A DNA stretch of 64,000 nucleotides from Actinokineospora inagensis DSM 44258 (lineage in GTDB: Bacteria > Actinomycetota > Actinomycetes > Mycobacteriales > Pseudonocardiaceae), in assembly GCF_000482865.1 (NCBI RefSeq), contig NZ_KI519517.1, positions 188,548 to 252,547 on the forward strand. The letters are read 5' to 3'. Positions 1 to 22,650 of this stretch are shown here, in pieces. Each line of letters starts with the position of its first letter. Positions within the stretch are counted from its first letter, which is position 1. The notes beneath the pieces were generated by a model. It was not told where the DNA came from, searched no databases, and saw only the letters and a list, made by a program, of their open reading frames with translations. The position numbers were made by a program, and so were the translations under genes.

Positions 1-765
1 GACCCGCTGGGGTCGATGCCGCGCATCGCCGAGTGGGTGCGCGACCAGCAGCGCGGCCTGCGCGACCGGCACGGCGTGCCCGGCGACGACGACCTGCGGT
101 TCTCGCCGCACTCGGTCGTCGTGTTCAGCACCGCCGAGCTCGCCGGTGACCCGATGGTGTCGGTGGCGGGCCCACACTACGTCGGCCCGTCGCTGGCCCG
201 GCGCAGGCCGGTGGAGTTCCCGTGGGCCCGGCTGCGGCCGGGCGCCCGGCTGGTGCTGGTCACCCTGGGCACCACGAACTCCGAGGCGGGCGGCCGGTTC
301 CTGGCCGAGTGCGCGCTGGCGCTCGCCGAGCTGCGGGACCGGGACCTGCAGGGCGTCGTGATCGACCCGGGCGGCTTCCTCGCCCCGGCCGGGGACGTGG
401 TCGTGGTCCCGTCGGCGCCGCTGCTGGACCTGATCCCGCGCGCGGCCGCGGTGGTCTGCCACGGCGGGCACAACACCGTGTGCGAGACCCTGGCGCACGG
501 TGTCCCGCTGGTCGTCGCGCCGATCCGGGACGACCAGCCGGTGGTGGCCGACCAGGTCGTCGCGTCCGGTTCCGGTGTGCGGCTGCGGTTCGACCACGCC
601 CGCGCACCGGACATCGCCAAAGCGGTGCGCGCGGTCACCGCCGAACCGGGTTACGTCGAGGCGGCCTGCCGGGTGCGGGCGTCGTTCGACCGGGCGGGTG
701 GCGCCCAGGCCGTGGTGTCCCGGGTGGAGGACCTAGTGCTCAGCTCGCGGATCGCGCGCAGGTAG
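1..765 (+). CDS. Glycosyltransferase, MGT/UGT type (5' end outside window)
   Basis: C-terminal part of a GT1-family glycosyltransferase; the frame is open from base 1, so the true start lies upstream and the first in-frame ATG (16) is probably internal. The nucleotide-sugar-binding half is visible: a segment LVLVTLGTTNSEAGG, then VVCHGGHNTVCETLAHGVPL followed by VVAPIRDDQPVVADQV, the HGG...E...G...P signature of natural-product glycosyltransferases. Family members move an activated sugar to a small acceptor in the cytosol. Its place beside two polyketide synthases suggests a tailoring role on their product (inference); donor and acceptor cannot be read. It runs convergently into the SARP gene, sharing about 115 bases at the 3' ends. 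Confidence 0.85.
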   Translation, partial: DPLGSMPRIAEWVRDQQRGLRDRHGVPGDDDLRFSPHSVVVFSTAELAGDPMVSVAGPHYVGPSLARRRPVEFPWARLRPGARLVLVTLGTTNSEAGGRFLAECALALAELRDRDLQGVVIDPGGFLAPAGDVVVVPSAPLLDLIPRAAAVVCHGGHNTVCETLAHGVPLVVAPIRDDQPVVADQVVASGSGVRLRFDHARAPDIAKAVRAVTAEPGYVEAACRVRASFDRAGGAQAVVSRVEDLVLSSRIARR

Positions 766-2513: not shown

Positions 2514-3419
2514 TCAGGCCGACCGGCGGAAGTTCCGGGCGGCGATGGCGCCCCCGCCGAGCGCGGCGACCGCGGCCAGGCCGACCGCCATCGGCAGCGA
2601 CCAGCCGGGCACCCGGCCCAGCGCGAGCGCGCGGGCGGCGTCGATCGCGTAGGTCAGCGGGTTGACCGTGGCCACCGCCCGCACCCACGCGGGCATGCTC
2701 TGCAGCGGCATGTACGCGCTGCTGGAGAACATCAGCGGGTAGGTGGCGATGAAGGACACCGCCTGCATCAGCTCGATGCTGCGCTGCCAGGTCGCGATGG
2801 CGACGAACAGCCAGCTCAGCCCCCAGCCGACGAACAGCGTCAGCAGCACCGCCGCCGCGAGTCCCAGCGGACCCCCGTACGGGGCGAAGTCCAGGAACAG
2901 CACGGCAGCCACCACGATCGCCACCAACTGCACGGCCAGCCGCGCGGTGTCGGCGAACGTGCGGGCCAGCAGCACCGAGCCGGTGGCGATCGGCAGGCTG
3001 CGGAACCGGCCGATCACCCCGCTGTAGGTCTCGGCGACCAGCCCGGCGCCGGCGCCCATCGCGGTGATCATCGCGATGTTCACCAGCGTCGCGGGCATCA
3101 GGTAGTTGATGTACCCCTGGTACTGGGCCACCCCGGGCAGCGACCCGACCCCGGAGAACACCTGGCTGAACAGCAGCAGCAGCACGACCGGCTGCAGCAG
3201 CCCGAAGAACACCAGCCGCGGGTCGCCGAACGCGGCCCGCAGCGACCGGGTGGTCAGCACCCACACCTGGGTGCGCAGCGAGCTCCCGGTCCACTCGGTC
3301 CGGTCGCCGACCACGTCCTCGTCGCCGGGCTCGGCGTTGGTCGAACCCGCCTTGCTCGAACTGGTCTTGCTCGAACCCGTCTTGCTCGCACCCGAGCGCA
3401 GGTGCCGGGGCTTGCTCAT
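2514..3419 (-). CDS. ABC-2 type export permease (DrrB-like)
   Basis: 301 residues. A charged, Ser/Lys-rich N-terminus of about 60 residues is followed by six hydrophobic segments (for example LVFFGLLQPVVLLLLFSQVF and FVGWGLSWLFVAIATW), the fold of ABC-2 permeases that export daunorubicin-type drugs. The ATG at 3419 was chosen because it overlaps the stop of the ATPase gene as ATGA (3416-3419), giving translational coupling; longer reading of the same frame upstream is only a shadow of the ATPase gene. With the ATPase it should form a plasma-membrane exporter for the product of this cluster, also serving as self-resistance (inference from context). Confidence 0.9.
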   Translation of the reverse strand: MSKPRHLRSGASKTGSSKTSSSKAGSTNAEPGDEDVVGDRTEWTGSSLRTQVWVLTTRSLRAAFGDPRLVFFGLLQPVVLLLLFSQVFSGVGSLPGVAQYQGYINYLMPATLVNIAMITAMGAGAGLVAETYSGVIGRFRSLPIATGSVLLARTFADTARLAVQLVAIVVAAVLFLDFAPYGGPLGLAAAVLLTLFVGWGLSWLFVAIATWQRSIELMQAVSFIATYPLMFSSSAYMPLQSMPAWVRAVATVNPLTYAIDAARALALGRVPGWSLPMAVGLAAVAALGGGAIAARNFRRSA

Positions 3420-4501: not shown

Positions 4502-7500
4502 TCACTGACCGGGGTAATCCCATCCACTTATAAGGTCGTCCGGTTGGTCGACCGCCGGAACGGGTCGAATTGCGGTGATCGCCGCGGGTGGCCGGTCGTG
4601 CGCTCGCGGGCGATCGGTGTTCCAGGTGCCGGTGTCCGATGTGTTCGCGTTCACTGTCGGCGTGGTACTCGGGGCGGGTTCGGTGGTGTCCTGGTCGGCT
4701 GTCTGCGCGGTACTTGTGCTGTCCGGTCTGGTGTTCCCGGTGTCGGACGGGTCCAGGTGGCGGGCGAGGGCCGCCGGGGTGGGGTGGTCGAACACCAGGG
4801 TCGGTGGCAGCGCCCGTCCGGTCGCCGCGCTGAGTCGGTTGCGGAGTTCCACCGCGGACAACGAGTCGAAACCCAGTTCCCGGAACGGTCTCGTGGGATC
4901 GACCGCGGCCGGGTCCCGGTGGCCCAGCACCACGGCCACTTCCCGCCGCACCACCGTGAGCATGTCGGAGACCGGTTGCGCCGCAACGGGTTCCGGTGCC
5001 GGTTCGGCTGGTGTCAGCTCGCTGCGGCGCAGCGGGACGAGCACCGGCGCCGAGGTGGCGACCGCTCGGTCGAACAGCGCCAGTGCGTCCTCAGTGGACA
5101 GTGGGGCGACCCCGGCCCTGGCGATCCTGGCCAGGTCGGCCGCGGTGAGGTCGGCCGTCATCGCGCCGCGGTGTGCCCACACCCCCCAGGCCAGCGCCAT
5201 GGCGGGCAGCCCGATCGAGCGGCGGTGCCGGGCCAGCGCGTCCAGGTAGGCGTTGGCGGCGGCGTAGTTGCCCTGCCCCGCCGCGCCGATGGTGCCCGCC
5301 GCCGACGAGAACAGCAGGAAGAAGTCCAGGTCCGCGCCGGTCGTCAACGTGTGTAGATGCCGCGCGCCGGACACCTTGGGCAGCAGCACCCGCTCCACCT
5401 GGTCCGGGGTCAGCGCGTCCACGGTGCCATCGACCCGCTCGCCCGCCGCGTGCACCACCCCGACCAGCGGGCGGTCCACCTCGATCTTGGCCAGCACGGC
5501 GGCCAGCGCGACCCGGTCGGTGACGTCGCACGGGCGGATCACCACCGATTCCGCGCCCGCCGCGCACAACTGGCCGACCAGCGGGTCGTCCGGGGCGGCG
5601 GACCGGCTCAGCAGCACCAGGTGCCGCGCGCCGTGCGCGACCACCAGGTGCCGGGCGATGATCCGGCCCAGGGCGCCGGTGCCGCCGGTGACCAGCACGG
5701 TCCCGGTGGCCATCCGGTTGCTGGGCACGGTGAGCACCAGTTTGCCGGTGTGGGTTCCGGCCCGCATCCGGCGCAGGGGTTCGGCGATCTCCCGGATGTC
5801 CCAGGCCCGCGGCGGCGGCGGCGCCAGGTCGCCCGACGCGGCCAGCGCGACCACCCCGGCGAGGAGTTCGCCGATCCGCTCCGGTCCGGCGGAGTCGACC
5901 AGGTCGAACGCCCGGTAGTCGACGTGGTGTTCGCGCGCCACCCGCCCGGGGTCGCGCACGTCCAGCTTGCCCATGTCGACCAACCGGCCACCGGGGCGCA
6001 GCAACCGCAGCGAGGCGTCCAGCAGCGGGCCGGTGAGCGAGTTGAGCACCAGGTCCGCGCCGTGGAACCGGTCGGCGAACGCGGCGTCCCGCGAGGAGGC
6101 GACCTCTTCCACTCCCAGCGATCGCACCAGCGCCTGCTTGCCCGGTGACGCCGTGGCCAGAACCCGCGCGCCGTTGAGCCGCGCCAACGCCACCGCGGCC
6201 ATCCCGACCCCGCCCGCCGCCGCGTGCACGACCACGGTCTCACCGGGTCGCAACCCGCCGAGGTCGAACAACCCGTGCCAGGCGGTCAGGTAGGCAACCG
6301 GGACGGACGCGGCCACCGCGAACGACCACCCGGTCGGCATCCGGGCCAGGAACCGCTGGTCGGTCGTCGCGCGCGCCGAGAACGCGCCGGGCACCAACCC
6401 GAACACCCGGTCGCCCGGCGCGAACGCGGACACGCCAACGCCGACGCGGCGGACGACGCCGGCGGCCTCGGCCCCCATCTGCCCCAGGCCGGGGTAGTTG
6501 CCCAGCGCCAGCAGGACATCGCGGAAGTTCAGCCCGGCGGCCCGGATGTCGATCTCCACCTCGCCCGGTCCCGGCGCGGCCTCGTCTACCGGTGTAGGCG
6601 ATACCTCGTCCAGTGAGTGCCCAGCGCCCGGGGCGAGCCGCCAGCCGTCGGCGGGCAAGGTCAGCCCGTGCGGCCGGTGCGGGGCGAGCGTGGGTACGAG
6701 CACTTCTGTGTCGACCGAGAGGGCCGCGCCGACCGAGGCGGCGGCCAGCACGGGTACCACCAGGTCGCCGACCCGGTCCACCACCGCGAACCGGCCGGGG
6801 TGTTCCGCGCACGCGGACCGCATCAGGCCCCACACGGCCGCCCCGGGCAGGTCGGTGGGCGGCTCGTCCCCGGCCGATCCCCGGGTGACCACGGCGAGCG
6901 TCGACCGTTGCCACCGCTCGTCACCCAGCCAGGCGCGCAGGGTCTCCAGCGTCCACGAGACGGCCTCCAGCGGTGTGGTCCCGCCGCGCTCGACCAACAC
7001 CAGGTCCGGTGTCTGCGCACCCGCGTCGACCGCGCCCGCCAGTTCCGTGAGATCCCGGTACCGCGCGCCCGCGTCGACCCAGGCCGAGTCGCCCAACACG
7101 GCGACCTCGTTGTGCCGCGCCGGTTCGGTGGGAACCCAGTCGACCGAGTACAGGCCGCCCCGCGCCGTTCGCAGGCCAAGGGACCCGATGACCAGCACCG
7201 GCTTGCCGTCGGTGCCCGCGGCGGCGACCTCCACGATCGAGCCGTCCCGCACACCGATCCGCACCCGCAGCGCGCGGGCGCCCGCCAGGCGGGACCGGAC
7301 GTCGGTGAAGGTGTGCGGGAGCCCTTCAACTGTGTCGGTGTCGCCGAGGACGTGCAGGGCACCGTCCAGCAGCGCGGGGTGCACCTCGAACCCGCGGACC
7401 ACGTCCGGGTCGACGACGGTGTCGGCGTAGAGGTGGCCGTCGTCGCCGTGCCAGGCACGGCGCAACACGCGGAACGCGGGACCGTAGTGGTACCCGCGCG

Positions 7501-9346
7501 CGTCGAGGTCGGTGTAGAGCCGGTCGATGTCCACCGGCCGACCCGGCGGTGGCCAGGTCGTCGCCCAGGGCTGTTCTCGCAGCGGTTCATCGTCTGCGCG
7601 CAGCACGCCGGTCGCCCGAAGTGTCCACTGTGTACTGGAAGTCCGTGCCTCGACGCGCAGCGCGCGGGTTCCGTCGACCGGGGCTTGCGCGGTCAACCGG
7701 ACCTCACCGCCGTCGACCTGGATCGGCGCGTGCAGCACGAGTTCACCGACGACCGGGTGGCGGGTGCGTCTACCGACGTGCAACGCGCACTCCAGCAGCG
7801 CGGCGGCGGGCAGGATCGGCGTGCCCGCGACAACGTGGTCACCGAGCCAGGTCGCGGCGCCCAGCGCGCCGGTGAACACGATCTCGCCCTCGGCGCCCGC
7901 CGCGCCGTGGTCCAGGAACGGGTGCACGGCGACGGGTGTGCCGGACTCCAGTGGCAGGTAGTCGGGCAGCCAGTAGCGGACCCGGTTCCCGTCGCCGGGC
8001 TCCGGTTCGGTGGGCCAGGCCGCGTCGCCCTGCTCCAGCAGCACGTGGGCGTTGGTGCCGCTGATCCCGAAGCCGGACACACCGGCCCGGCGCGGTCGGC
8101 CGAGGTCGGGCCACGGCCGGTTGTCCCGCAACACCTCGATCCGCCCGGCGGCCCAGTCCACCTGGTCGGAGAGCTCGTCGACGTACAGGGTGCGCGGCAG
8201 CACCCCGTGCGCGAGCGCGGCGACCGCCTTGATCATCCCGGCCGCGCCCGCCGCCGCGGCCGAATGCCCGATGTTCGACTTCACCGAGCCCAGCCACAGC
8301 GGCGCTGTCCGCTCCCCGTACGCGGCCACCAGCGCGGTTCCCTCGATCTTGTCGCCGACCGGGGTGCCGGTGCCGTGCGCCTCGACCAGGTCGACCTGGT
8401 CCGCGGTCAGGCCAGCGTTGCGCAGCGCGCTCGTGATCACCCGTTCCTGGGCGGCGCCGCTCGGGGTGCGCAGGCCCTCGGTGGCGCCGTCGGAGTTCAC
8501 CGCGCTGCCGCGCACCAGCGCCAGCACGCGGTGCCCGTTGCGGCGGGCGTCGGCGAGCCGTTCGAGGACAACGATCCCGGCGCCCTCCGCCCACACCGTG
8601 CCGTCCGCGCCCGCGCCGAACGCCTTGCAGCGCCCGTCCGGGGCCAGACCGCGCACCTGGGCGAAGTCGACGATGCCACCGGGCGTGCACATCGCGGTCA
8701 CCCCGCCCGCCAGCGCGAAGTCGGTTTCCCCGGCGCGCAACGACTGGCACGCCAGGTGCACCGCCACCAAGGAGGACGAGCACGCCGTATCGATGGTCAG
8801 CGCGGGCCCGTGCAGACCGAGCGCGTAGGCCACCCGGCCGGAGACGACACTGCTGACGCTGCCGGTGAGCCGCTTGCCGGACACCAATGCGGGACTCAAG
8901 TGCAGCGGCATCCCGTAGTCGGAGTACGCGACCCCGGCGAACACGCCGGTCGCGCTCCCGTACATCGATTCGGGTGGCAACCCGGCGTGCGTCAATGCCG
9001 CCCAGCACACATCCAGCAGCAGGCGTTGCTGTGGATCCATCGCCAACGCCTCGCGCGGGCTGATCCCGAACCGCTCGGCGTCGAATAGCGGCAGGTCGTA
9101 AAGGAATCCGGCCTCCCGCGTGTAGGTGCGACCGGGGCGGCGCGGGCGGCGGTCGTAAAGCGCGTCCAGGTCCCAACCGCGGTCCCCGGGGAAGGGGCCG
9201 ATGCCGTCGCCGCCGGTGACCACCAGGTGCCACAACCCGGTCGGCGAGGTGGCTCCACCGGGAAAGCGGCAGCCGAGTCCGATTACCGCGATTGGCTCGG
9301 TCGGGCGGGGTTCGGTGTCCACTGGCCGAACATAAGCCGGGGTCAC
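4502..9346 (-). CDS. Type I PKS module lacking AT: KS-DH-ER-KR-ACP
   Basis: 1614 residues. KS (about 16-440) has Cys189 in DTACSSS, His324 and His361. DH (about 470-740) has His504 in HVVAGTPILP and Asp661. ER (about 915-1205) has LNFRDVLLALGN and GGVGMA. KR (about 1213-1420) has TGGTGALG, Ser1348 and Tyr1361. ACP Ser1495 is in LGFDSLS. A Thr/Pro-rich tail of about 75 residues follows. There is no room for an acyltransferase: only ~30 residues separate KS and DH, yet they contain RVRYWLPD, which resembles the post-AT linker ([11 protein letters not shown] in the second PKS). This looks like an excised AT. The module should add a fully reduced two-carbon unit if loaded in trans. GTG start at 9346; 9322 is also possible. 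No thioesterase. Confidence 0.93.
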   Translation of the reverse strand: MTPAYVRPVDTEPRPTEPIAVIGLGCRFPGGATSPTGLWHLVVTGGDGIGPFPGDRGWDLDALYDRRPRRPGRTYTREAGFLYDLPLFDAERFGISPREALAMDPQQRLLLDVCWAALTHAGLPPESMYGSATGVFAGVAYSDYGMPLHLSPALVSGKRLTGSVSSVVSGRVAYALGLHGPALTIDTACSSSLVAVHLACQSLRAGETDFALAGGVTAMCTPGGIVDFAQVRGLAPDGRCKAFGAGADGTVWAEGAGIVVLERLADARRNGHRVLALVRGSAVNSDGATEGLRTPSGAAQERVITSALRNAGLTADQVDLVEAHGTGTPVGDKIEGTALVAAYGERTAPLWLGSVKSNIGHSAAAAGAAGMIKAVAALAHGVLPRTLYVDELSDQVDWAAGRIEVLRDNRPWPDLGRPRRAGVSGFGISGTNAHVLLEQGDAAWPTEPEPGDGNRVRYWLPDYLPLESGTPVAVHPFLDHGAAGAEGEIVFTGALGAATWLGDHVVAGTPILPAAALLECALHVGRRTRHPVVGELVLHAPIQVDGGEVRLTAQAPVDGTRALRVEARTSSTQWTLRATGVLRADDEPLREQPWATTWPPPGRPVDIDRLYTDLDARGYHYGPAFRVLRRAWHGDDGHLYADTVVDPDVVRGFEVHPALLDGALHVLGDTDTVEGLPHTFTDVRSRLAGARALRVRIGVRDGSIVEVAAAGTDGKPVLVIGSLGLRTARGGLYSVDWVPTEPARHNEVAVLGDSAWVDAGARYRDLTELAGAVDAGAQTPDLVLVERGGTTPLEAVSWTLETLRAWLGDERWQRSTLAVVTRGSAGDEPPTDLPGAAVWGLMRSACAEHPGRFAVVDRVGDLVVPVLAAASVGAALSVDTEVLVPTLAPHRPHGLTLPADGWRLAPGAGHSLDEVSPTPVDEAAPGPGEVEIDIRAAGLNFRDVLLALGNYPGLGQMGAEAAGVVRRVGVGVSAFAPGDRVFGLVPGAFSARATTDQRFLARMPTGWSFAVAASVPVAYLTAWHGLFDLGGLRPGETVVVHAAAGGVGMAAVALARLNGARVLATASPGKQALVRSLGVEEVASSRDAAFADRFHGADLVLNSLTGPLLDASLRLLRPGGRLVDMGKLDVRDPGRVAREHHVDYRAFDLVDSAGPERIGELLAGVVALAASGDLAPPPPRAWDIREIAEPLRRMRAGTHTGKLVLTVPSNRMATGTVLVTGGTGALGRIIARHLVVAHGARHLVLLSRSAAPDDPLVGQLCAAGAESVVIRPCDVTDRVALAAVLAKIEVDRPLVGVVHAAGERVDGTVDALTPDQVERVLLPKVSGARHLHTLTTGADLDFFLLFSSAAGTIGAAGQGNYAAANAYLDALARHRRSIGLPAMALAWGVWAHRGAMTADLTAADLARIARAGVAPLSTEDALALFDRAVATSAPVLVPLRRSELTPAEPAPEPVAAQPVSDMLTVVRREVAVVLGHRDPAAVDPTRPFRELGFDSLSAVELRNRLSAATGRALPPTLVFDHPTPAALARHLDPSDTGNTRPDSTSTAQTADQDTTEPAPSTTPTVNANTSDTGTWNTDRPRAHDRPPAAITAIRPVPAVDQPDDLISGWDYPGQ

Positions 9347-9397: not shown

Positions 9398-9525
9398 ATC
9401 AGTTGGTAATAATTCCGGTAATGTCCCGACCTTGGCTGAGCAGCGGGCTTGTGCCATGCTGGCCGAACTTCCGGATCACGGCGGTTCGGATCCGGCATCC
9501 GCCCCTCGGCCATATGGAAGTCAGA

Positions 9526-11073
9526 ATGCCTCAATCGACGAAATGTGCCCCCGGACATGCGCGTTCGATGTTTATCGGCAGCATTACGGCGGTTATTGCA
9601 GTCGTTTTCTCCGGTTTACCCGGATCGGCGTCCGCGGCCGGGCTGCCGCCGTCGCCGATCGGCCCGCTCGGCGTGTTCGCCGCCCCGAGCGCCGCGGCGG
9701 CGCCACCGGTCGTCAAGCCCTACCTGTCCCGCCAGGACCTGGTGCCGCCGGTGATCAAGGTGGACACGAACACCGCGCCCACCTCGCCGGGCCTGATCCT
9801 GCTGACCCCCAAGGCGACCACCAACGAGCAGATGGGCCCGATGTTGGTCGACGACTCGGGCAACCCGCTGTGGTTCGACCAGCGCGGCGACAAGATCCGC
9901 CTGGTGATGAACGCGCAGAAGCAGACCTACCGGGGCAAGCCGGTGCTGATGTGGTGGGAGGGCGCGTTCATCCCGCTCGGCTGGGGCATGGGCACCGTCA
10001 CCATCGTCGACGACCACTACCGCACCGTCGCCCAGGTGGGCGTGGACAACAGCATCGACCTGCACGCCATCAAGATCACCCCGCAGAACACGCTGATCGC
10101 GGTGTCCTACCGGACGACGAACACGGTGCCTGGCGGCGTCTCGCTGCGGCCGATCGTGGAGAACGTCATCCGCGAGATCGACATCGCCACCGGCAAGGTG
10201 CTCTGGACCTGGTCGAGCCTGGACCACATCCCCACCAACGAGTCCTACCTGCGCTCCAACGAACTGGTGGCGTGGGACTACCTGCACTTCAACGCGGTCG
10301 ACCTCAACGCCGACGGCAACATCGTCATCTCCGGCCGCAACACGCACACCGTGTACACCATCGAGCGCGGCACCGGGAAGATCCTCTCCCGGATGGGCGG
10401 CAAGTTCTCCGACTACACCGTCGCCCCGGACGCGCAGTTCGCCTGGCAGCACAACGTGCAGGTGACGGCCAACGGCGACATCAGCATGTTCGACAACGAG
10501 CAGGGCGCCACCTTCCCGCCGACCTCGCCGACGCTGCCGTACTCGCGGGCGATCGTCGTGCACGTGGACCCGGCCACCAAGACCGTGTCGCTGGTCCGGT
10601 CGGTGCACACGCCGGACAACCTGGGCACCGGCGCGCAGGGCAGCAACCAGCCGATGCCGGACGGGCACGACTTCGTCAGTTGGGGCGACACCGGCCGCTA
10701 CAGCGAGTTCGACCAGAACAACCAGATGATCTACGACGCGCACTTCACCGGCGCCACGGTCAACACCTTCGTCGGCAACCGGGTCGACTGGCACGGCTAC
10801 CCGACCGAGCCGCCCGCGATCGCGGCCACCAAGACCGCCACCGGCGGGGTCACCGCGTACGCGAGCTGGAACGGCTCCACCGAGCTGCGCCGCTGGCAGT
10901 TGCTCACCGGCAACGACCCCAAGCACCTCAAGGTCGTCAGCGAGGTGCCGCGCGGCGGGTTCGAGACGTCGCTGACCGACGCCGGTGCCGCCACCTACGC
11001 CGCGGTCCGCGCGCTGGACGCGAACGGCAAGGTGCTGGCGACCTCACCGGTTGCGCAGGTGCAGGCCGGATGA
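9526..11073 (+). CDS. Secreted arylsulfotransferase (ASST)-family protein
   Basis: 515 residues from the ATG at 9526, chosen because GGAAG lies seven bases upstream and the N-terminus then reads as a signal peptide (basic start, hydrophobic MFIGSITAVIAVVFSGL, cleavage near SASA-A). The rest is a beta-propeller-like protein with repeated units such as DLNADGNIVISGRNTHTVY and HNVQVTANGDISMFDNEQG, as in the Arylsulfotran family. Relatives move sulfate between phenolic donors and acceptors without PAPS, outside the membrane. Overlaps the next gene as ATGA. Codon 31 is TTA (9616-9618), a rare codon that in actinomycetes can impose bldA control. Family assignment is from memory of sequence pattern; the catalytic His was not proven. 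Confidence 0.82.
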   Translation: MPQSTKCAPGHARSMFIGSITAVIAVVFSGLPGSASAAGLPPSPIGPLGVFAAPSAAAAPPVVKPYLSRQDLVPPVIKVDTNTAPTSPGLILLTPKATTNEQMGPMLVDDSGNPLWFDQRGDKIRLVMNAQKQTYRGKPVLMWWEGAFIPLGWGMGTVTIVDDHYRTVAQVGVDNSIDLHAIKITPQNTLIAVSYRTTNTVPGGVSLRPIVENVIREIDIATGKVLWTWSSLDHIPTNESYLRSNELVAWDYLHFNAVDLNADGNIVISGRNTHTVYTIERGTGKILSRMGGKFSDYTVAPDAQFAWQHNVQVTANGDISMFDNEQGATFPPTSPTLPYSRAIVVHVDPATKTVSLVRSVHTPDNLGTGAQGSNQPMPDGHDFVSWGDTGRYSEFDQNNQMIYDAHFTGATVNTFVGNRVDWHGYPTEPPAIAATKTATGGVTAYASWNGSTELRRWQLLTGNDPKHLKVVSEVPRGGFETSLTDAGAATYAAVRALDANGKVLATSPVAQVQAG

Positions 11074-12410
11074 GCAGCCGGGGCGCCGTTGTCTGGCTCA
11101 CCGGCTTGTCCGGGTCGGGCAAGTCGACCATCGCCAGGGCGCTGGCGGTCGAGCTGGCGGGCGCGGGCACTCCGACCGAGGTGCTCGACGGGGACGTGGT
11201 GCGCTCCGCGCTGTCCGCCGAACTGGGCTTCAGCAGACGCGATCGGGGCATCCAGGTGCAGCGGGTCGGCTACCTGGCCGACCTGCTGTCCCGGCACGGG
11301 GTGACCGTGGTGGTCGCGCTGATCTCGCCGTACCGGGAGAACCGGGACGCGGTGCGGGCCGCCCTCGAGGCGGCCGGGTCGTCCTTTGTGGAGGTTCATG
11401 TCCGCGCGCCGCTGCAGGAGCTGATCCGCCGCGACACCAAGGGCCTCTACCGCAAGGCGCTGGCCGGGGAGATCAACGCCTTCACCGGCATCAGCGATCC
11501 CTACGAGCCACCCGGCCAACCGGAACTGGTGGTGGACACCGACGAGTGCGACCCGGCCGACGCGGTCGCCGAGATCATGTCCGCGCTGCGCCGGGCGCAG
11601 GCGGCCGACTCCGGTGACCACGCGCTGGCCGGTGACCTCGCCGTCGCCGCCGGGCGGCGGCTGCTGGCGTTGCGCGCCGAACTGGGTTTCGCCGATCCCG
11701 GCGCGCTGCGCGACGCGGGCGACCAGGGCTCGCACGCGCTGCTGGCGGCCAAGATCGCCGAGCACCGGCCGCACGACCGGCTGCGCTCGGAGGAGGCGTC
11801 CGGCGACGGCAGCGGCGAGCGGCTGTGGATCGTCGACCCGCTCGACGGCACCCGCGAGTTCGGTGAGGCCGACCGCACCGACTGGGCCGTGCACGTGGCC
11901 CTGTGGTCCGGCGGCGCGCTCACCGCGGGCGCCGTCGCGCTGCCCGCCCGCGACCTGCTGCTGACCACCGCCGCCGCGGTCGCCCGGCCGCGCGCGCCGG
12001 GCCGGTTCCGGATCGCGGTCAGCCGCACCCGGCCGCCCGCGCTGGCCAAGGCGCTGGCCGAGGAGTTGGACGCCGACCTGGTCCCGATGGGCTCGGCCGG
12101 GGTGAAGATCGCCTCGGTGCTGCTCGGCGAGACCGACCTGTACGTGCACGGCGGCGGCCAGTACGAGTGGGACTCCGCCGCCCCGGTCGCGGTGGCGCTC
12201 GCCGCCGGGCTGCACGCGTCCCGGTTGGACGGTTCCCCGCTGGTCTACGGCCGCCCCGACGCGTGGCTGCCGGACCTGGTGGTGTGCCGGGCCGACGACG
12301 CCGACCGGGTGCTCGCCGCCGTGAAGACCGTTGAGCAGGCCGCTGAGCACGGTGTTGGGCACAGTGCCGCGCCGGGCGCCCCGGCCACCCGAGTTGAGGA
12401 GAAGGCATGA
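11070..12410 (+). CDS. Fused APS kinase (CysC) / PAP phosphatase (CysQ)
   Basis: 446 residues. Residues 1-~175 are an APS kinase: Walker A GLSGSGKST, then LDGDVVRSALSAELGFS and VVVALISPYRENRDAVR. Residues ~185-420 are a 3'(2'),5'-bisphosphate nucleotidase of the inositol monophosphatase fold: LRSEEA, DPLDGTREF and YEWDSAAPVAVALAAG, the three metal-site motifs. The protein would make PAPS from APS and remove the inhibitory by-product PAP, i.e. supply and clean up after the sulfotransferase encoded next. Both ends overlap neighbours as ATGA (11070 and 12407), so the three genes are translationally coupled. No ATP sulfurylase gene is in the window, so APS must come from elsewhere. Confidence 0.92.
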   Translation: MSSRGAVVWLTGLSGSGKSTIARALAVELAGAGTPTEVLDGDVVRSALSAELGFSRRDRGIQVQRVGYLADLLSRHGVTVVVALISPYRENRDAVRAALEAAGSSFVEVHVRAPLQELIRRDTKGLYRKALAGEINAFTGISDPYEPPGQPELVVDTDECDPADAVAEIMSALRRAQAADSGDHALAGDLAVAAGRRLLALRAELGFADPGALRDAGDQGSHALLAAKIAEHRPHDRLRSEEASGDGSGERLWIVDPLDGTREFGEADRTDWAVHVALWSGGALTAGAVALPARDLLLTTAAAVARPRAPGRFRIAVSRTRPPALAKALAEELDADLVPMGSAGVKIASVLLGETDLYVHGGGQYEWDSAAPVAVALAAGLHASRLDGSPLVYGRPDAWLPDLVVCRADDADRVLAAVKTVEQAAEHGVGHSAAPGAPATRVEEKA

Positions 12411-13039
12411 AGGTCATCGGCGTCGGTCTCGGCCGCACCGGCACGGCCTCGGTGAAGGCGGCGCTGGAGCAGTTGGGCTTCGGCCCCTGCTACCACATGT
12501 TCGAGGTCACCGCGCACCCCGAGCACGGCGAGCAGTGGCTCTCCGGGTACGCGGGCGGCCCGGTCGACTGGGCCGCGGTGTTCGCGGGCTACAAGTCCAC
12601 AATGGACTGGCCGGGCTGTTCGTTCTGGACCGAGCTCGTCGACCGCTACCCGGACGCGAAGGTCCTGCTGACCGTCCGCGACCCGCTGAGCTGGTACGGC
12701 AGCATGGCCCGCACCCTGTTGCCGGTGTGGAAGATGTCCACCGACCCGGCGCGCGATGTCCCCGGTTTCGAGTGGTACGGCCAACTCGTCAAAGCGATCT
12801 CCGACCACACCTTCGGCGGCGACCTCGACGACCGGGACCACCTGATCGGCGCGTTCACCGCGCACAACGACGCCGTGCGGGCCGCTGTCCCGGCCGACCG
12901 GCTGCTCAGCTACGAGGTCGGCCAGGGCTGGGCGCCGCTGTGCGAGTTCCTTGGTGTCGCGGTCCCCGACGGCGACTTCCCCCACCTGAACGACACCGCG
13001 TCGTTCCAGTCCATGGTCGAGCGGCTGCTGACCGCCTGA
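12407..13039 (+). CDS. PAPS-dependent sulfotransferase family protein
   Basis: 210 residues. The N-terminal P-loop-like GVGLGRTGTASVKAALEQLG is the 5'-phosphosulfate-binding loop of the Sulfotransfer_4 group, which covers the actinobacterial/NAD-dependent-epimerase-type sulfotransferases. VLLTVRDPLSWYGSM provides the 3'-phosphate-binding region. Expected to transfer sulfate from PAPS to a hydroxyl of a small molecule in the cytosol. Its start overlaps the stop of the PAPS-making enzyme (ATGA), and a PKS starts 54 bases downstream, so the acceptor is probably a polyketide intermediate or a carrier molecule (inference). Confidence 0.87.
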   Translation: MKVIGVGLGRTGTASVKAALEQLGFGPCYHMFEVTAHPEHGEQWLSGYAGGPVDWAAVFAGYKSTMDWPGCSFWTELVDRYPDAKVLLTVRDPLSWYGSMARTLLPVWKMSTDPARDVPGFEWYGQLVKAISDHTFGGDLDDRDHLIGAFTAHNDAVRAAVPADRLLSYEVGQGWAPLCEFLGVAVPDGDFPHLNDTASFQSMVERLLTA

Positions 13040-13092
13040 CCGCGTGACCATCTGACCGTCTGACCGCGGACGTCCCGCCGGAGGCACCACCG

Positions 13093-16000
13093 ATGGAAGA
13101 GTTGCGCGCCGAACTGCGCCGGTTGCGCGCCCGGGTCGCCGGGCTGACCGAGCCGATCGCCGTGGTCGGCACCGGCTGCCGGTTCGCGGGCGGGGTCGCC
13201 TCGGCGGACGACCTGTGGGACGTGGTCGCGGCGGGCCGGGACGTCGTGTCCGGCCCGCCGACCGACCGCGGCTGGGACCAGCGCGGCCTGACCGGCGGCG
13301 GGTTCCTCGACCACGCCCTCGACTTCGACGCCGACCTGTTCGGCGTCAGCCCGCGCGCCGCGCTCGGCATGGACCCGCAGCAGCGGGTCCTGCTGGAGGT
13401 GTGCTGGTCGGCGTTCGAGGACGCCGGGTTCACCCCGGGCGCGGACGAGTTGACCGGCGTGTTCGTCGGCGTCGCCCACCACGACCACGCCGCCCGGCTG
13501 CGCTCGGTGCCTGCCGAGGTCGCCGGGCACCTGGGGTTGGGCAGCGCGACCAGCGTCGTGTCCGGGCGGATCGCGCACACCTTCGGGCTCACCGGGCCCG
13601 CGCTGACCATCGACACGGCGTGCTCGTCGTCGCTGGTGGCGTTGCACTTGGCCGTCCAGTCGCTGCGGCGGGGCGAGGCCGAGGTCGCGCTGGCGGGCGG
13701 TGTGACGGTCATGTCGACGGCCACCACCTTCACCGAGTTCGCCCGGATGGGCGCCATCTCCCCGGACGGCCGGTGCCGCGCGTTCGCCGAGGGGGCGGCC
13801 GGGTTCGGGCCGTCCGAGGGCGCCGGGGTACTCGTGCTGGAACGGCTGTCCCGCGCGCGGGAACTGGGCCACCGGGTGCTCGCCGTGGTGCGCGGGTCCG
13901 CGGTCAACTCCGACGGCGCCGCGGGCTGGCTGACCGCTCCCGACGCGGACGCCCAGGCCAGGGTGATCGCCGCCGCGCTCGCCGACGCCGGGCTCCGACC
14001 GTCCGATGTGGACGCGGTGGAGGCGCACGGGACCGGCACCCAGCTTGGTGATCCGGTGGAGGCGCGGGCGCTGGCGGCCACCTTCGGACCGGGCCGGGAC
14101 CGGCCGCTGTACCTGGGGTCGGTCAAGTCGAACATCGGGCACACCCAGGCCGCCGCCGGGGTCGCCGGCGTGATCAAGACGATCGCCGGGCTGCGCCGCG
14201 GTGTGCTCGCCAAGTCCCTGCACATCGAACAGCCGTGCTCCGGCGTCGAGTGGGGGCCGATCTCGCTGCTGCGCGACCAAGTGGCCTGGCCCGACCACGG
14301 ACAGCCGCGCCGCGCGGGCGTGTCCGCGTTCGGCATCAGCGGGACCAACGCGCACGTGGTCCTCGAACAGGCACCCGAGCAGGTCGCCCCGGAACGTCCT
14401 TCGCGCCCCGACCCCGGTCTCGGCCTGATCAGCCCGACCGTGCCGCTGCTGCTCTCCGCAGCTTCCGCCGCCGCGCTGCGGGCGCAGGCGAACCTGCTCA
14501 AGGAGTCCTTACCCGGCGGCAGCACCGGCGGAGTCGGCGTGTCGTTGACGCGCAGGCCGGTGCTGGGCCACCGCGCCGTCGTGCTCGCCCACTCGGACCA
14601 GACCGCGGTGGCCGGGCTCGGTGCGCTGGTCGACGGGGACCCGGGCGCGGGTGAGCTCGTCGTCGGTCCCGGCGACGTCGGCCGGGGCGGTTCCGGGGCG
14701 GTCCTGGTGTTCGGCGGCCAGGGCTCGGAGTGGGTCGGCATGGGGGAGGACCTGCTCGCCTCCTGCGGGGTGTTCGCCGATCGGATGGCCGAGTGCGCCA
14801 AAGAGCTTTCCCACCTGGTCGACTGGGACGTCCGCGCGGTGCTGTCGGACCCGGACGCCCTGCGCCGGGTGGACGTGCTGCAGCCCACCCTCTTCGCCGT
14901 GATGGTCTCGCTCGCCGCCATGTGGCAGGCCTGCGGTATCCGGGTCGACGCGGTCGCCGGGCAGTCCCAGGGTGAGGTCGCCGCCGCCTGCGTCGCGGGC
15001 GCGCTGTCGCTGGGTGACGCCATGCGGGTCGCGGTCACCCGGTCCCGGCTGGTCGCCGCGCTCGACGGCGGCGCGATGGCCTGGGTGCACGCGCCCTGGG
15101 GGTGGGTCCACCAGGCCGCGCACACCATCCGCAGGTCGAACGGCGTGGACGGCACCGGCTGCGGGGCGGATGGCTGTCCGAGCACCGGGGTGTGGCTGGC
15201 GTCGGTGAACGCGCCCACGTCGGTCGTCGTCTCCGGGACCCCCGAGATCTTCGACGCCCTGCTCGCGTACTGCGACGAGCACGGCGTGCGGGCGGGCCGG
15301 ACTCCGATCGGCTACGCCTCGCACAGCCCGCACGTGGAGGTCGTCGAGACCGCGCTGCGGCACGAACTGCGCGACATCACCCCGCTGGCCGCGAAGATCC
15401 CGATGATCTCCTCGGTCACCGGCGCCGAGGTCGACATCGTCGACGCCGACTACTGGTACCGCAACCTGCGTGCCCCGGTCCGGCTGGACCGGGCCGTCGC
15501 CACGCTGCTGGCCCGCGGCCACACCGCGTTCGTCGACTGCAGCCCGCACCCGATCCTCAACCCGGCGCTGCACCGCAACCTGCACGGGCACACCACGCAC
15601 ACCAGCCACGCCGTCATCGCCACCATCCAGCGCGACGACGGCACGCCGAACCGGTTCCTGACCAACCTGGCCACCGCGCACGTGTCCGGGGTCGGCGTCG
15701 ACTGGTCGTCGCTGCTGGGTGGCCTGCCGGACCGGCCGGTCGCGCTGCCCGGGTACCCGTTCCAGCGGTCCCGCTACTGGATCCCGGCCGAACGGCGGTC
15801 GCTCGGCGCGCTGATGAGTACACAGTGGACGAAGGTGGACCCGGTCCCGGCCGAGGTGGTCTGGGCCGAGGACGCCCCGGCTGAGCCGTCCGGCCTGCTC
15901 GTGCTGCCGATCACCGCCCGGGAAACCGTCGACGCGCTGCGCGAGGTGTCCGGGTTGCTGACCCGCTGGCGCACCGACCCGGCGTGGGCGGGCGCCCGGC

Positions 16001-17079
16001 CGGTGGTGGTGACGCGGGGCGAGTCGCCGGACGACCCGGCGGCCGCCGCGGTCTGGGGGTACGTGCGCTCGGCCCAACTCGTCCACCCCGGTCAGGTCAA
16101 GCTGGTCCACCTGCCGACCGCCGAGCCCGCGGCCACCGTGGCCGCGGTCGTCGGCGCGGGGGACCAGTTGGTGGTCCGCGCGGACGGGGTCCACGAGCCC
16201 CGGCTGGTCCCGGCGACCGGGCAGTGCCCGGCGCCGGACCTCGGCCACGGCACCGTGCTGATCGCAGGCGGCACCGATGCCGACCGCGCGATGTTCGCCC
16301 GCGCCATGACCGACCTCGGCGCCCGCGACCTCCTCGTGCTCGGCCACCCACTGCCGGACCTGACCGACACGGCGCCGATCCGGTTCACCGATGACGACAT
16401 CCCGCGCGCACTGGCCCAAGTGGACTCACTGGCCGGTGTCGTCTACGCGGGCACCCGCTACGACGACGCCTTGGCCCTGCACGAGCTCACCGCAGAGGCA
16501 GGCCTCGCCCTGTTCGTACTCTCCAGCTCCGCCAACGGTCTGCTCGGCGGCAAGGGCGCCGTGCCCGCCGCCGCGTTCAACTCCCTCGCCCGCCGCCGCG
16601 CCACCCACGGCCTGCCCGCCAAGGCGATCGCCTGGGGTCCGGCGGAAGAAGGCCACCTCGGGGTGACCCCATTGTCCACAGAGGACAAGCGAGTGCTGGT
16701 CGGCGCCGCGCTGCGCACCCCGGAGCCCGTGCTGGCGGCGGTCGAACTGGACCCGGCCGCGCTGCGGGTCTGGCCGGTCGTGCCGCCGCCGCTGCGGCAC
16801 ATGGCCGCCCGCCAAGAGCCCACCCCGGCAGTGGGCACCGACCTGGACAGCCTGCTGGACCTGGTCCGCGCGCACGTCGCGGTCGTCCTCGGCCGACCGG
16901 GTGCCGCCGCAGTCCCCGCCGGGGCGGCGCTGCGCGACCTGGGTTTCGACTCGCTCACCGCGGTCGAGCTGCGCAACCGGCTCAGCCTCGCCACCGGCGT
17001 CGCGCTGCCGCCCACCCTGGTCTTCGACCACCCCACACCTGCTGCGGTGGCCGAGTGCCTCCGTGCGGAACTCGCATAG
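13093..17079 (+). CDS. Type I PKS: docking helix-KS-AT-inactive KR-ACP
   Basis: 1328 residues. A charged helix ([14 protein letters not shown]) resembles a docking domain, so it probably receives a chain from another protein. KS: Cys177, His312, His350. AT (about 535-850): Ser625 in GQSQGE and YASH at 741-744, the methylmalonyl-type signature. The KR region (about 920-1190) is degenerate: the Rossmann loop reads AGGTDADR and the catalytic Tyr position falls in [11 protein letters not shown], so no ketoreduction is expected. ACP Ser1287 in LGFDSLT. No DH, ER or thioesterase. Codon 473 is TTA (14509-14511). A GGAGG site precedes the ATG. Its AT is the only one in the window and could load the AT-less module in trans (inference). 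Confidence 0.93.
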
Positions 17080-17101: not shown

Positions 17102-20100
17102 ATGCTTACATCCAGGAGGCGCACGACGGCGCGCGCGGCCAGAGCGGCCATCGCCACCGTCGCGCTCGGCACCGTGCTGAGCGGCGTCCACCTCGCCCCG
17201 GCGGAAGCGGCAGGTGCCCCGGCCACGGCCTGGTCACACTCGGTCACCCTGCTGACCGGTGACCGGGTGGAGGTGGACGCGCTGGGCAACCGGTCGATCC
17301 ACCCCGCCCCGAACCGGCAGAAGACCCTGTTCCAGTACTACGAGCGCGACGGCCACCACTTCGTCGTCCCGGTCGACGCGCTCGCCCCGCTCGCGAACGG
17401 CAAGCTCGACGAGCGCCTGTTCGACATCGACACCCTGCTGGCCGACAAGTACGACGACGCGCACACCCGGACCCTGCCGCTGATCGTCACCTACCAGCCC
17501 GGTCTGGCCCCCGCGCACCTCGCGGGCGTGGCATCGACGATGAACCTGGCGTCCATCAACGCCTCCGCCGTCGCCGCCAACCGGGACGGGTCGGCCTGGG
17601 CCGCGGTGAACACCCCGGGCGTGCGCAAGATCTGGCTCGACGGCACCCGCACACCGCTGCTGGACAAGAGCGCCCTGCAGATCGGCGCCCCGACCGCATG
17701 GCAGGCCGGGTACACCGGCAAGGGCGTCACCGTCGCCGTGCTCGACAGCGGCGTCGACACGACCCACCCGGACCTGACGACCCAGGTCGCGGCCGAGAAG
17801 AACTTCACCGACTCGCCGGACGGACTGGACTGGATCGGCCACGGCACCCACCTGGCGTCGATCATCGCCGGCACCGGGGCCAAGTACAAGGGCATCGCCA
17901 ACGGCGCCACCCTGCTCGACGGCAAGATCTTCGACGACGACGGGATGAGCCGCGACTCCTGGATCATCGCGGGCATGCAGTGGGCAGCCGACCAGGGCGC
18001 CAAGATCGTCAACCTGAGCCTGGGCATGAACGACCTGCCGGACACCGACCCCCTTGAGGACGCGGTCAACACGATCTCCGCGCAGAAGGGCACCCTGTTC
18101 GTCGTGGCAGCGGGCAACGACGGCCTCAACGGCGGCGGCACCGTCGGCTCACCCGCCAGCGCCGACGCCGCGCTCGCCGTCGGCGCGGTCGACCGCGCCG
18201 ACAAGGTCACCATCTGGTCCAGCCGCGGCCCGCGCATCGGCGACGGCGCGGTGAAGCCGGACATCACCGCGCCCGGCCTCGCCATTGTCGCCGCCCGCTC
18301 GGCGCAGTCGCAGGGCGACGGCCAGTACGTGGCCGAGACCGGTACGTCGATGGCCGCCGCGCACGTCGCCGGGGCCGCCGCCGTCCTCGCCCAGCAACAC
18401 CCGGACTGGACCGGTGAGCAGCTCAAGGACGTGTTGATGGCGAGCGCCAAGCCCGGCGCGCAGCAGACCATCTTCCAGGAGGGCGCAGGCCGGGTCGACG
18501 TCGCCGCCGCCATCACCCAGGCCGTGTCGGCCAGCCCCGCCTCGGTGCAGATGGGCGTCGAACGGCTCCCGGACACCGGCGGCCAGACCTTCACCAAGAC
18601 GGTCACCTACCGCAACACCGGCACCGCCGACACGACCCTGGACCTCAAGGTCGGCATGCTCGACCCGAACGGCAAGGCGTCCACCGTGCTGTCCGTGTCG
18701 CCCGCGCACCTGAGCGTCCCGGCGGGCGGCACCGCGACCGCGACCTACACCGCCAACCCGGCCGCCGCGAACGTGCAGGGCCTCTACCCGGGCATCGTCA
18801 CCGCGACCGGCCCGAACGGCACCGTCCGCACCCCGTTCGTCTGGGGCCGCTCGGTGCAGACCTACGAGATCACCGTCCCGCAGACCGGCCTGGACGGTCA
18901 GCCCGCGGTGAACAGCACCGTCACGTTCGTGTCCAAGGCCGCGGGCGCCAAGCAGTACCCGGTGCCGCCGTCCGGCCGCCTGCGGTTGCCCGCCGGTGAC
19001 TACTCGATCAACTCGGTGCTCATCGGCGACGAGGTGAACTGGCTGTTCCAACCGACGTTCACCGTCACCGGCGACGCGACGGTGGCCATCGACTTCCGGC
19101 AGACCAAGCGGCTGACCATCACCCCACCCACCCGGGACGCCACCGGCACCTTCGCCGACGTCGCCCTGTCCTACGGCGACTACGCGACCGGCATCGCCGG
19201 GACCGACCTCACCCGGACCTCGACCGGTACGGTCGGCGCCCCGATCGCGGGCACCGCGCTGACCACCAAGATCCAGACCCAGTGGGTGGCCGACAACGGC
19301 GACTTCTACGGCCTGGCGTACTTCGGCCACGGCAGCCTGCCGAACGGTCTGGACAAGCACCCGTCGAAGCGGGACCTGGCGCACGTCCGGGCCGACCTGC
19401 GCACCACCATCGCCGGTCACAACGGCCTGCGCGGCGCGTTCCCGTTCCCGACCGCGGGCAGCGTGCTGGACTCCAGCCCCGGGTACCAGACCTACGCGCT
19501 CCCGCACGTCCGCGACGAGTACTACACGACCGAGGCCGACGGGGCCGCCTGGACCACCGAGCTGATCCAGACCGCGCCCGGCAGCACGACCGCCGAGGAC
19601 ACGATCCTGAGCCCGCTGCGCCGCTACCAGGCGGGCCGCGGCTACACCGAGACGTTCAACCAGGGCGTGTTCGCGCCCGCGTTCCCGCTCGTCCCCAAGG
19701 GCCAGTCGTTCGTCGGCCGGAACAAGGACGCCATCCACGCCTCGATGTCGCTGTTCGGTGACGCCTCGGGCAACGCGGGCAACGGGTCCCTGTCCAGCAC
19801 CGTCACCTCCCTCTACCGCAACGACACCAAGGTCGGCGACTGGACCAACCCCACCCCCGCCACCTTCAACGTCCCCGCGGACGAGGGCACCTACCGGCTG
19901 ACCGCGGACGCCGTCCGCACCCCGGGCACCGGTGACGCCTCGACCCACGTGACGGCCGCGTGGACCTTCAAGTCCAGCCACACGGACGCGGACACCGCGC
20001 TGCCCATCTCCACGCTGCGTGTCCTCGCACCCGTCGACGCGAACAACTCGGCCGCCAAGGACAAGCTGTTCGTCATCCCGTTCGCCCTGCAACCCCAGGC

Positions 20101-20308
20101 GACCACCGACTACCAGTCACCGAAGACGCTGACGGTCGAGGTCTCCTACGACAGCGGCAAGACCTGGACCAAGGTCCCGGTCTTCTTCAACACCGCCCTC
20201 CTGCACCACCCCAACGCGACCGGCACGGTCTCCCTCCGCGCCGTCGCCACGGACAAGGCGGGCCAGACCGTCGAACTGACCGTGCTCGACGCGTACAAGC
20301 TCCGCTGA
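17102..20308 (+). CDS. Secreted subtilisin-like serine protease (S8)
   Basis: 1068 residues. The start is fixed by GGAGGAAC just before ATG 17102. Signal peptide: RRRTTARAARAA then a hydrophobic stretch ending APAEAAG. A pro-region leads to the S8 domain with Asp in VAVLDSGVDTTHPD, His in GHGTHLASII and Ser in GTSMAAAHVAG. The long C-terminal half (about 500 residues) contains beta-sandwich-like accessory modules. Exported peptidase. It starts 22 bases after the PKS stop and a strong hairpin follows, so it is probably the last gene of the sulfation/PKS operon. That is unusual for a general exoprotease; a role in maturation or release of the product is possible but unsupported. Confidence 0.93.
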   Translation: MLTSRRRTTARAARAAIATVALGTVLSGVHLAPAEAAGAPATAWSHSVTLLTGDRVEVDALGNRSIHPAPNRQKTLFQYYERDGHHFVVPVDALAPLANGKLDERLFDIDTLLADKYDDAHTRTLPLIVTYQPGLAPAHLAGVASTMNLASINASAVAANRDGSAWAAVNTPGVRKIWLDGTRTPLLDKSALQIGAPTAWQAGYTGKGVTVAVLDSGVDTTHPDLTTQVAAEKNFTDSPDGLDWIGHGTHLASIIAGTGAKYKGIANGATLLDGKIFDDDGMSRDSWIIAGMQWAADQGAKIVNLSLGMNDLPDTDPLEDAVNTISAQKGTLFVVAAGNDGLNGGGTVGSPASADAALAVGAVDRADKVTIWSSRGPRIGDGAVKPDITAPGLAIVAARSAQSQGDGQYVAETGTSMAAAHVAGAAAVLAQQHPDWTGEQLKDVLMASAKPGAQQTIFQEGAGRVDVAAAITQAVSASPASVQMGVERLPDTGGQTFTKTVTYRNTGTADTTLDLKVGMLDPNGKASTVLSVSPAHLSVPAGGTATATYTANPAAANVQGLYPGIVTATGPNGTVRTPFVWGRSVQTYEITVPQTGLDGQPAVNSTVTFVSKAAGAKQYPVPPSGRLRLPAGDYSINSVLIGDEVNWLFQPTFTVTGDATVAIDFRQTKRLTITPPTRDATGTFADVALSYGDYATGIAGTDLTRTSTGTVGAPIAGTALTTKIQTQWVADNGDFYGLAYFGHGSLPNGLDKHPSKRDLAHVRADLRTTIAGHNGLRGAFPFPTAGSVLDSSPGYQTYALPHVRDEYYTTEADGAAWTTELIQTAPGSTTAEDTILSPLRRYQAGRGYTETFNQGVFAPAFPLVPKGQSFVGRNKDAIHASMSLFGDASGNAGNGSLSSTVTSLYRNDTKVGDWTNPTPATFNVPADEGTYRLTADAVRTPGTGDASTHVTAAWTFKSSHTDADTALPISTLRVLAPVDANNSAAKDKLFVIPFALQPQATTDYQSPKTLTVEVSYDSGKTWTKVPVFFNTALLHHPNATGTVSLRAVATDKAGQTVELTVLDAYKLR

Positions 20309-22518: not shown

Positions 22519-22650
22519 CGCCCGTCGGGCCGGTCGACGGCTGGGGGAGGTCCGCCGCCCGCCCGCCCGGCGAGGATGGGGGGAGTCCGGGCGGGGCCGG
22601 GCACCGTCCACACCGGACGAACCGGTCTCCTGCCGAACCCGGAGAAACCC

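Follow-up and report, generated by a model that had tools for sequence, protein, structure and literature searches.

Caprazamycin biosynthesis moves sulfate in two steps: Cpz8 sulfates a pyrone, from which Cpz4 then passes the sulfate on, according to the available parts of two reports (PMC6731281, PMC4257720). What carries the sulfate when enzymes of this kind are found in a cluster without the carrier-making type III polyketide synthase (PKS), Cpz6? The question is raised by a stretch of 64,000 nucleotides from Actinokineospora inagensis DSM 44258 (contig NZ_KI519517.1, positions 188,548 to 252,547; hereafter the window), in which genes for an ASST-family protein, a CysC-CysQ fusion and a sulfotransferase of the 3'-phosphoadenosine-5'-phosphosulfate (PAPS) type lie in front of a type I PKS gene. 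We conclude that the locus encodes a real, conserved and new variant of two-step sulfation. In our preferred reading, to which we give a probability of about 0.6, it is a caprazamycin-type relay: a Cpz8-like enzyme would load a carrier, and a secreted ASST would sulfate an exported glycolipid of the same cluster.

The three enzyme families and the gene coordinates given in a preliminary description of this locus are confirmed, each family by Pfam and by matches to solved structures. The ASST matches PF14269 (2.1e-49, 169 bits, cut-off 27) and PF05935 (2.7e-22, 79.7 bits, cut-off 24.2), and its structure model (pLDDT 83) has the beta-propeller fold of Cpz4 and AssT. The nearest solved structure is that of Cpz4, 9kf6 (Z 50.6, rmsd 1.8, 447 aligned residues, 42% identity, over the mature length), and a second Cpz4 structure, 9kf4, scores Z 50.2; both were identified as Cpz4 from their structure titles. 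AssT follows at Z 31.0-31.7, and the next fold at 21.8. In a profile alignment, positions 252, 356, 374 and 436 of AssT correspond to H180, H254, R271 and H309 of the ASST; Cpz4 has the same residues, and all four are invariant in the 19 aligned rows. The first three of these AssT positions we take to be part of the active site. The AssT alignment pieces are weak alone (-0.2 bits at 252, 4.5 at 356/374, 14.0 at 436), and Cpz4 aligns along the full length of the ASST with 601 bits. AssT acts via a sulfated histidine, H436, as stated in the available part of PMC13426309. The preliminary description had treated a missing catalytic histidine as fatal to its proposal; H309 aligns with H436, so the histidine is in place.

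The CysC-CysQ fusion matches PF01583 (1.2e-55) and PF00459 (1.5e-24). It has GLSGSGKST at residue 12 and DPLDGT at residue 256, which we take to be the P-loop of the kinase for adenosine 5'-phosphosulfate (APS) and the CysQ metal motif, respectively. The sulfotransferase belongs to PF17784 (3.2e-66, 223.7 bits), and its nearest solved protein is 9kf1 (53% identity), which is itself 87% identical to the sulfotransferase of the cpz-like locus of Streptomyces massasporeus. The record of 9kf1 names the chain only as 'Sulfotransferase family protein'; from the neighbouring PDB codes and the 87% identity we infer that it is Cpz8. In a midpoint-rooted tree of 29 sequences, the window's enzyme falls in a clade with 9kf1 and the proteins of S. 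massasporeus, G158 and G290 (ultrafast bootstrap 98), and two of these members, G158 and S. massasporeus, have an adjacent ASST and a Cpz6-like type III PKS. Because the ASST matches Cpz4, the four active-site positions are kept and the sulfotransferase lies in the Cpz8 clade, the ASST, CysC-CysQ and sulfotransferase are, as judged by sequence and structure model, caprazamycin-type two-step sulfation enzymes. The caprazamycin link proposed in the preliminary description is thus strongly supported.

Is this gene group more than a chance assembly? Sixteen Actinokineospora genomes were compared, that of the window and 15 others. An ASST with 66-70% identity is found in 6 of the 15, so that the cluster, whose absence from all related genomes would have told against the proposal, is present in 7/16. 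All six loci are syntenic, with the glycosyltransferase, AfsR regulator, ABC pair and PKS1, followed by the ASST, CysC-CysQ, sulfotransferase, PKS2 and S8 protease. The overlap of -4 between CysC-CysQ and sulfotransferase is kept in 7/7 clusters, and that between ASST and CysC-CysQ in 6/7 (G009 has 155 bp). In the window both junctions are ATGA overlaps, as first described; the third junction, where the genes were said to run straight into the PKS, is no overlap but a 53-bp gap between sulfotransferase and PKS2 that bears GGAGG. Pairwise ratios of nonsynonymous to synonymous substitution (dN/dS, Nei-Gojobori, five genes, 21 pairs per gene from the seven clusters) are below 1 in 105/105 comparisons, with medians, rough at this GC content, of 0.54 for the ASST, 0.38 for the sulfotransferase, 0.32 for CysC-CysQ, 0.31 for PKS1 and 0.29 for PKS2. 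Since gene order is kept in six other genomes, the overlaps are kept and all dN/dS values are below 1, the gene group is more than chance. An rpoB tree places the seven cluster-bearing genomes in one part together with the cluster-less G005 and G001 (support for the placement of G001, 0.285). From these sequence data, inheritance with loss is the simplest reading of the distribution.

The conserved block begins upstream of the window, with a 2194-aa protein containing NMO, ketosynthase (KS), acyltransferase (AT), acyl carrier protein (ACP) and ketoreductase (KR) domains, a 1393-aa KS-AT-dehydratase (DH) protein, a free ACP, an alpha/beta hydrolase and the start of the glycosyltransferase gene. 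The domain set (NMO/enoylreductase (ER), KS, AT, ACP, KR and DH over two proteins) is that of a polyunsaturated fatty acid (PUFA)-type synthase, with a weak ACP match in the first protein (0.00034); presumably the synthase can be labelled hglE-like. The synthase, ACP, hydrolase and glycosyltransferase are 70-94% identical in the six other clusters, and the 1393-aa protein has a match of at least 70% in exactly the 7 cluster-bearing genomes of the 16. Further upstream, AKR and SDR genes are found in 6/6 and a LysR gene in the 3/3 whose stretch extends there. On the other side, the LuxR, P450 and A-PCP genes that follow the S8 protease in the window were not found within 15-17.6 kb in 5/5 genomes, so the conserved cluster ends with the protease at 20308. 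Outside this block, P450, A-PCP and thioesterase genes lie in a row at 22576-26668, possibly a separate small cluster related to nonribosomal peptide synthetases (NRPS).

Table 1. Genes of the conserved sulfation cluster that lie in the window (positions are those of the window).
Feature	Coordinates	Strand	Evidence
ASST, Cpz4 kind, 515 aa, predicted secreted	9526..11073	+	Pfam, structure model vs Cpz4, active-site alignment
CysC-CysQ fusion, 446 aa: predicted APS kinase (makes PAPS) and phosphatase for 3'-phosphoadenosine 5'-phosphate (PAP; clears PAP)	11070..12410	+	Pfam, solved-structure matches, motifs
PAPS-type sulfotransferase, PF17784, Cpz8 clade, 210 aa	12407..13039	+	Pfam, solved-structure match, tree
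PKS2: KS-AT-degenerate KR-ACP, methylmalonyl-type AT motifs, no thioesterase (TE) found	13093..17079	+	Pfam, motifs
PKS1: KS-DH-ER-KR-ACP without AT, divergent from ASST gene	4502..9346	-	Pfam, motifs
ABC transporter ATPase, PF00005	3416..4480	-	Domain match, syntenic
ABC-2 membrane protein, PF01061, start position uncertain	2514..3365	-	Domain match, syntenic
AfsR/BTAD-type regulator	651..2501	-	Domain match, syntenic
Glycosyltransferase gene, 3' end (whole protein 385 aa; start G000:C2:188155, upstream of the window)	1..765	+	
S8 subtilase, 1068 aa, last conserved cluster gene	17102..20308	+	Syntenic in 7/7 clusters

The ASST start adopted here is the ATG at 9526; alternative in-frame starts are the ATG at 9514 and the TTG at 9403.

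Does a modular PKS occupy the place of Cpz6, as the preliminary description had it? A one-module enzyme, PKS2, does lie there, but the divergent PKS1 and the upstream PUFA-type synthase had been overlooked. PKS2 is a cis-AT type I enzyme with KS, AT and ACP on one protein. The motifs of these domains are present in 7/7 clusters with small changes (GIGH for NIGH in G011, NVGH and ACSSA in G009). Its AT bears YASH and RVDVLQ-like motifs, which mark methylmalonyl specificity. The KR of PKS2 lacks the nucleotide-binding and catalytic-Tyr motifs in 7/7, and is thus a dead ketoreductase, whereas the KR motifs of PKS1 are intact; no TE was found in PKS2. PKS1 is AT-less: between the end of its KS, near 436-458, and the start of its DH at 475 there is no room for an AT, and this linker is just as short in all seven clusters. 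G009 has a PKS1 missing both the nucleotide region of the ER and the Tyr motif of the KR, and in G012 the KR Tyr is altered; the PKS1 product may therefore vary. At the G009 locus (L014, 5075-9406), PKS1 is short of about 120 ER residues, in frame, which might come from a faulty assembly or from decay in the reducing half.

Related clusters show what the glycolipid part looks like alone. Sister clusters in G002, G007 and at a second locus of G003 have the PUFA-type synthase, hydrolase and glycosyltransferase at 39-58% identity, and the ACP in 2/3. Across the 40-60 kb of these three clusters there is no ASST, CysC, CysQ or sulfotransferase, and PKS1 and PKS2 are matched only by single domains. 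As both are missing from 3/3 sister clusters, the glycolipid core can exist alone, and the PKS pair and sulfation genes behave as a single add-on, although three clusters are too few to say whether its two parts also work together.

No Cpz6-like type III PKS was found in the cluster or in the seven cluster-bearing genomes, including the single-contig genome G006. The cluster indeed has no type III PKS, as first stated; elsewhere in the window's genome there is one such gene (PF02797, contig C70), whose product shares about 30% identity with the Cpz6-like protein of G158. For comparison, the S. massasporeus type III PKS is 66% identical to that of G158, and the best in cluster-bearing genomes reaches 33% (G011). 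Type III PKSs of any kind occur in 7/7 genomes with the cluster versus 7/9 without, and one orthologue group (at least 69% identity, including the C70 gene) in 7/7 versus 2/9. This group is present in 8/9 genomes of the cluster-bearing rpoB clade (one of them, G005, being cluster-less) and in 1/7 outside (G013); because it follows the clade more than the cluster, its distribution mostly reflects kinship. In the window's genome the C70 gene lies in a row (L071, 2380-4986) with two genes that by eye look like a methyltransferase and a UbiA-like prenyltransferase.

How widespread is the combination? At a threshold of 1e-20, the sulfotransferase is found in 47/297 genomes of the family, at 50 places, 42 of them outside the genus. 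Stretches of about 20 kb were examined at 21 of these 42: an ASST is present at 10, CysC together with CysQ at 10 and a type III PKS at one (G158), while ASST and type I PKS occur together in 0/21. The search for ASST, CysC-CysQ, sulfotransferase and PKS that the preliminary description called for thus yielded six other Actinokineospora genomes, and none of the 21 places outside the genus with an ASST and a type I PKS together. Named loci were taken as the best 80 of 547 confirmed, some records being shared with the family survey; the closest to the window's sulfotransferase among these 80 are in Actinokineospora terrae and A. diospyrosa. The whole set is present in 2 Actinokineospora loci, ASST, CysQ and type III PKS in S. 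massasporeus, and ASST, CysC and CysQ in 4 Saccharopolyspora loci; of the rest of the 80, 3 Saccharopolyspora loci have CysC and CysQ only, 1 has ASST only, 1 type I PKS only and 68 none.

Several of these neighbourhoods deserve separate mention. In S. massasporeus JCM 4139 (L098, 5042-10639), ASST, an HMG-CoA-synthase-like gene (by eye), type III PKS, CysQ and sulfotransferase lie in a row; this is probably a caprazamycin-type liponucleoside cluster. We take the row to be the caprazamycin gene set, and have assumed the gene-by-gene naming. A second Cpz-type set, in another genus of the family (G158, L040, 7078-13996), comprises type III PKS, ASST, Cpz8-clade sulfotransferase, CysC and CysQ. 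Loci from Saccharopolyspora and a second genus (L099, L103, L104, L105; L042, L045, L052) combine CysC, CysQ, sulfotransferase and ASST with no PKS in the examined stretch. In Nocardiopsis sp. CNR-923 (L107) and G662 (L177), a PF17784 sulfotransferase lies near a type I PKS, with no ASST in the examined stretch. The ASSTs of L042 and L046 start with a twin-arginine-like signal. Ten genomes of the class sample (L178-L187) have an ASST without the sulfotransferase, and a plasmid search gave 5 records with an ASST (32.5-37.0% identity).

In the caprazamycin-type relay that we favour, CysC would make PAPS in the cytosol from APS supplied by a CysN-type ATP sulfurylase, which is encoded on contig C24 of the same genome. 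The Cpz8-like sulfotransferase would put the sulfate onto a small enolic or phenolic carrier, and CysQ would clear the leftover PAP. The sulfated carrier would then leave the cell, in the order of steps that seems most plausible, and the Cpz4-like ASST, probably secreted, would take the sulfate on His309 and transfer it to the end product. As acceptor we think most likely a lipid bearing a sugar, for which the PUFA-type synthase, the ACP, the hydrolase and the glycosyltransferase would be responsible and which the ABC transporter would presumably export; the presence of synthase and glycosyltransferase in the cluster suggests this, and the two are the more likely source of the acceptor. The carrier is no Cpz6-type pyrone. 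Sequence comparison and modelling establish the enzyme families, the active-site residues, the relation to Cpz4 and Cpz8 and the conservation of the whole cluster, on which the proposed steps build. Several observations weigh against the relay or parts of it. No carrier-making gene was identified. The basis for secretion is a hydrophobic N-terminus, present in 12/12 ASSTs in a crude hydropathy scan that was also used to pick the start. The ASST is placed away from Cpz4 in a midpoint-rooted tree of 21 sequences, on a separate long branch that only a partial sequence from G076 joins; as its dN/dS is also the highest of the five genes, its donor and acceptor may differ from those of Cpz4. Across the class, 11/394 genomes have an ASST (E 1e-60) and 55/394 the sulfotransferase (E 1e-40), both together only in the window's genome; with the pair so rare, each enzyme can probably work alone.

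What, then, is the carrier? The preliminary description proposed a two-step system in which a type I polyketide carries or accepts the sulfate; of this, the two-step caprazamycin link stands and the polyketide is kept as a possible candidate only. PKS1 and PKS2 might replace Cpz6: PKS2, condensing but non-reducing, would leave a beta-keto chain, and cyclization of that chain to a hydroxypyrone or similar enol would give the substrate for sulfation. We consider this doubtful. PKS2 does keep its KS, AT and ACP motifs with KR motifs lost and no TE found, the PKS pair accompanies the sulfation cassette in 7/7 clusters and both are missing from the three related PUFA-glycosyltransferase clusters, and caprazamycin carriers are triketide pyrones as far as the available text of PMC4257720 and PMC6731281 goes. 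However, a single PKS2 condensation gives no pyrone, which would need two rounds or an incoming beta-keto chain; PKS1 is a reducing enzyme, its damaged or altered reductive parts in G009 and G012 may make the product variable, and the common occurrence of pair and cassette may reflect mere joint acquisition. Of the other neighbourhoods with sulfotransferase and ASST in the family, 9/10 show no PKS of either kind in the roughly 20 kb examined, which speaks against a type I PKS carrier and suggests that the relay may work without a PKS nearby. The fuller version, in which the AT-less reducing PKS1 feeds the non-reducing, TE-less PKS2, the resulting pyrone-like enol is sulfated by the Cpz8-like enzyme and the ASST then sulfates the sugar of the PUFA-type glycolipid outside, is more doubtful still; if true, it would be a transmembrane sulfate shuttle derived from type I polyketide chemistry. 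A tentative alternative, which we hold to be somewhat better placed, is that PKS1 and PKS2 extend the lipid, making the acceptor a PUFA-polyketide glycolipid, and that the carrier is an ordinary cellular phenol such as one made by a type III PKS encoded elsewhere in the genome. The type III PKSs and their shared orthologue group in all seven cluster-bearing genomes fit this, as do Saccharopolyspora and other sulfotransferase-ASST loci with no PKS in the examined stretch, but 7/9 cluster-less genomes also have some type III PKS and the orthologue group is largely a matter of kinship.

Two further readings do without a relay of this form. The sulfotransferase might sulfate the product directly in the cell while the ASST shifts sulfate among other molecules outside, which we regard as unlikely. 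Deletion of the gene for a PAPS-dependent enzyme left only the unsulfated form of notonesomycin, a type I polyketide, according to the part of PMC7081687 available, and L107 and L177 pair such a sulfotransferase with a type I PKS where no ASST was seen. The conserved overlaps, the joint presence of the genes in 7/7 clusters and the position of the sulfotransferase in the Cpz8 clade argue against it. Sulfation of a beta-hydroxyl ends the polyketide chain in the curacin type of decarboxylation, and the sulfotransferase gene here does precede a PKS gene without a detected TE. Nevertheless, such chain-end sulfation is very improbable because the dead KR of PKS2 should give no beta-hydroxyl; moreover, the sulfotransferase, a PF17784 enzyme in the Cpz8 clade, is a free-standing protein, and the ASST would be left without a role.

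In the open-licence literature searched by titles and abstract starts, neither this cluster nor the pairing of an ASST with a type I PKS was found to be described; nor is the cluster described in the literature on actinobacterial PUFA-type glycolipid clusters covered in the same way, and the words sulfotransferase and Actinokineospora are absent from PMC13291983. The cluster predicts a sulfated glycolipid, a product of which no description was found in that literature. The system is compact, so the carrier question could be answered by single gene deletions.

The closest known system is that of caprazamycin (Cpz4, Cpz6, Cpz8). The Cpz4-like and Cpz8-like enzymes are here likewise encoded in one operon or neighbourhood, and in the cpz-like locus of S. 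massasporeus a CysQ gene also adjoins the sulfotransferase gene. By contrast, no Cpz6-like type III PKS was found in cluster or genome, the window's CysC is fused to CysQ, its ASST stands apart from Cpz4 in the tree, and a PUFA-type synthase, type I PKSs and a glycosyltransferase take the place of liponucleoside biosynthesis. The glycopeptide enzymes Aba19 and Teg19 are also ASSTs inside actinomycete product clusters, Aba19 being 39% identical to Cpz4/LpmB in the available part of PMC11727664, but their clusters have an NRPS scaffold and several Sulfotransfer_1 enzymes. The sulfatostatin adp cluster (AdpST) resembles the window in joining PKS, sulfotransferase and PAPS genes in one operon, and differs in that its PKS is of type III, a single PAPS enzyme sulfates directly and none of its five genes codes for an ASST, as given in the accessible text of PMC12135136. 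Similarly, the notonesomycin cluster combines a type I polyketide, a PAPS operon and a sulfotransferase, whereas its enzyme is Stf3-like and acts directly, with no ASST mentioned in the portion of PMC7081687 at hand. Saccharopolyspora-type loci share CysC, CysQ, PF17784 sulfotransferase and ASST, and differ in that no PKS lies in the examined stretch and the sulfotransferase belongs to another clade. In the portions of the literature available, two-step sulfation through a sulfated enol or phenol as carrier has been reported for caprazamycin and close liponucleosides, where it is linked to a type III PKS. Seven Actinokineospora genomes now show the same enzyme pair in a lipid-glycoside cluster that lacks such a PKS; since Saccharopolyspora, too, has the pair, with no PKS in the examined stretch, we suggest that the relay is portable and its carrier variable.

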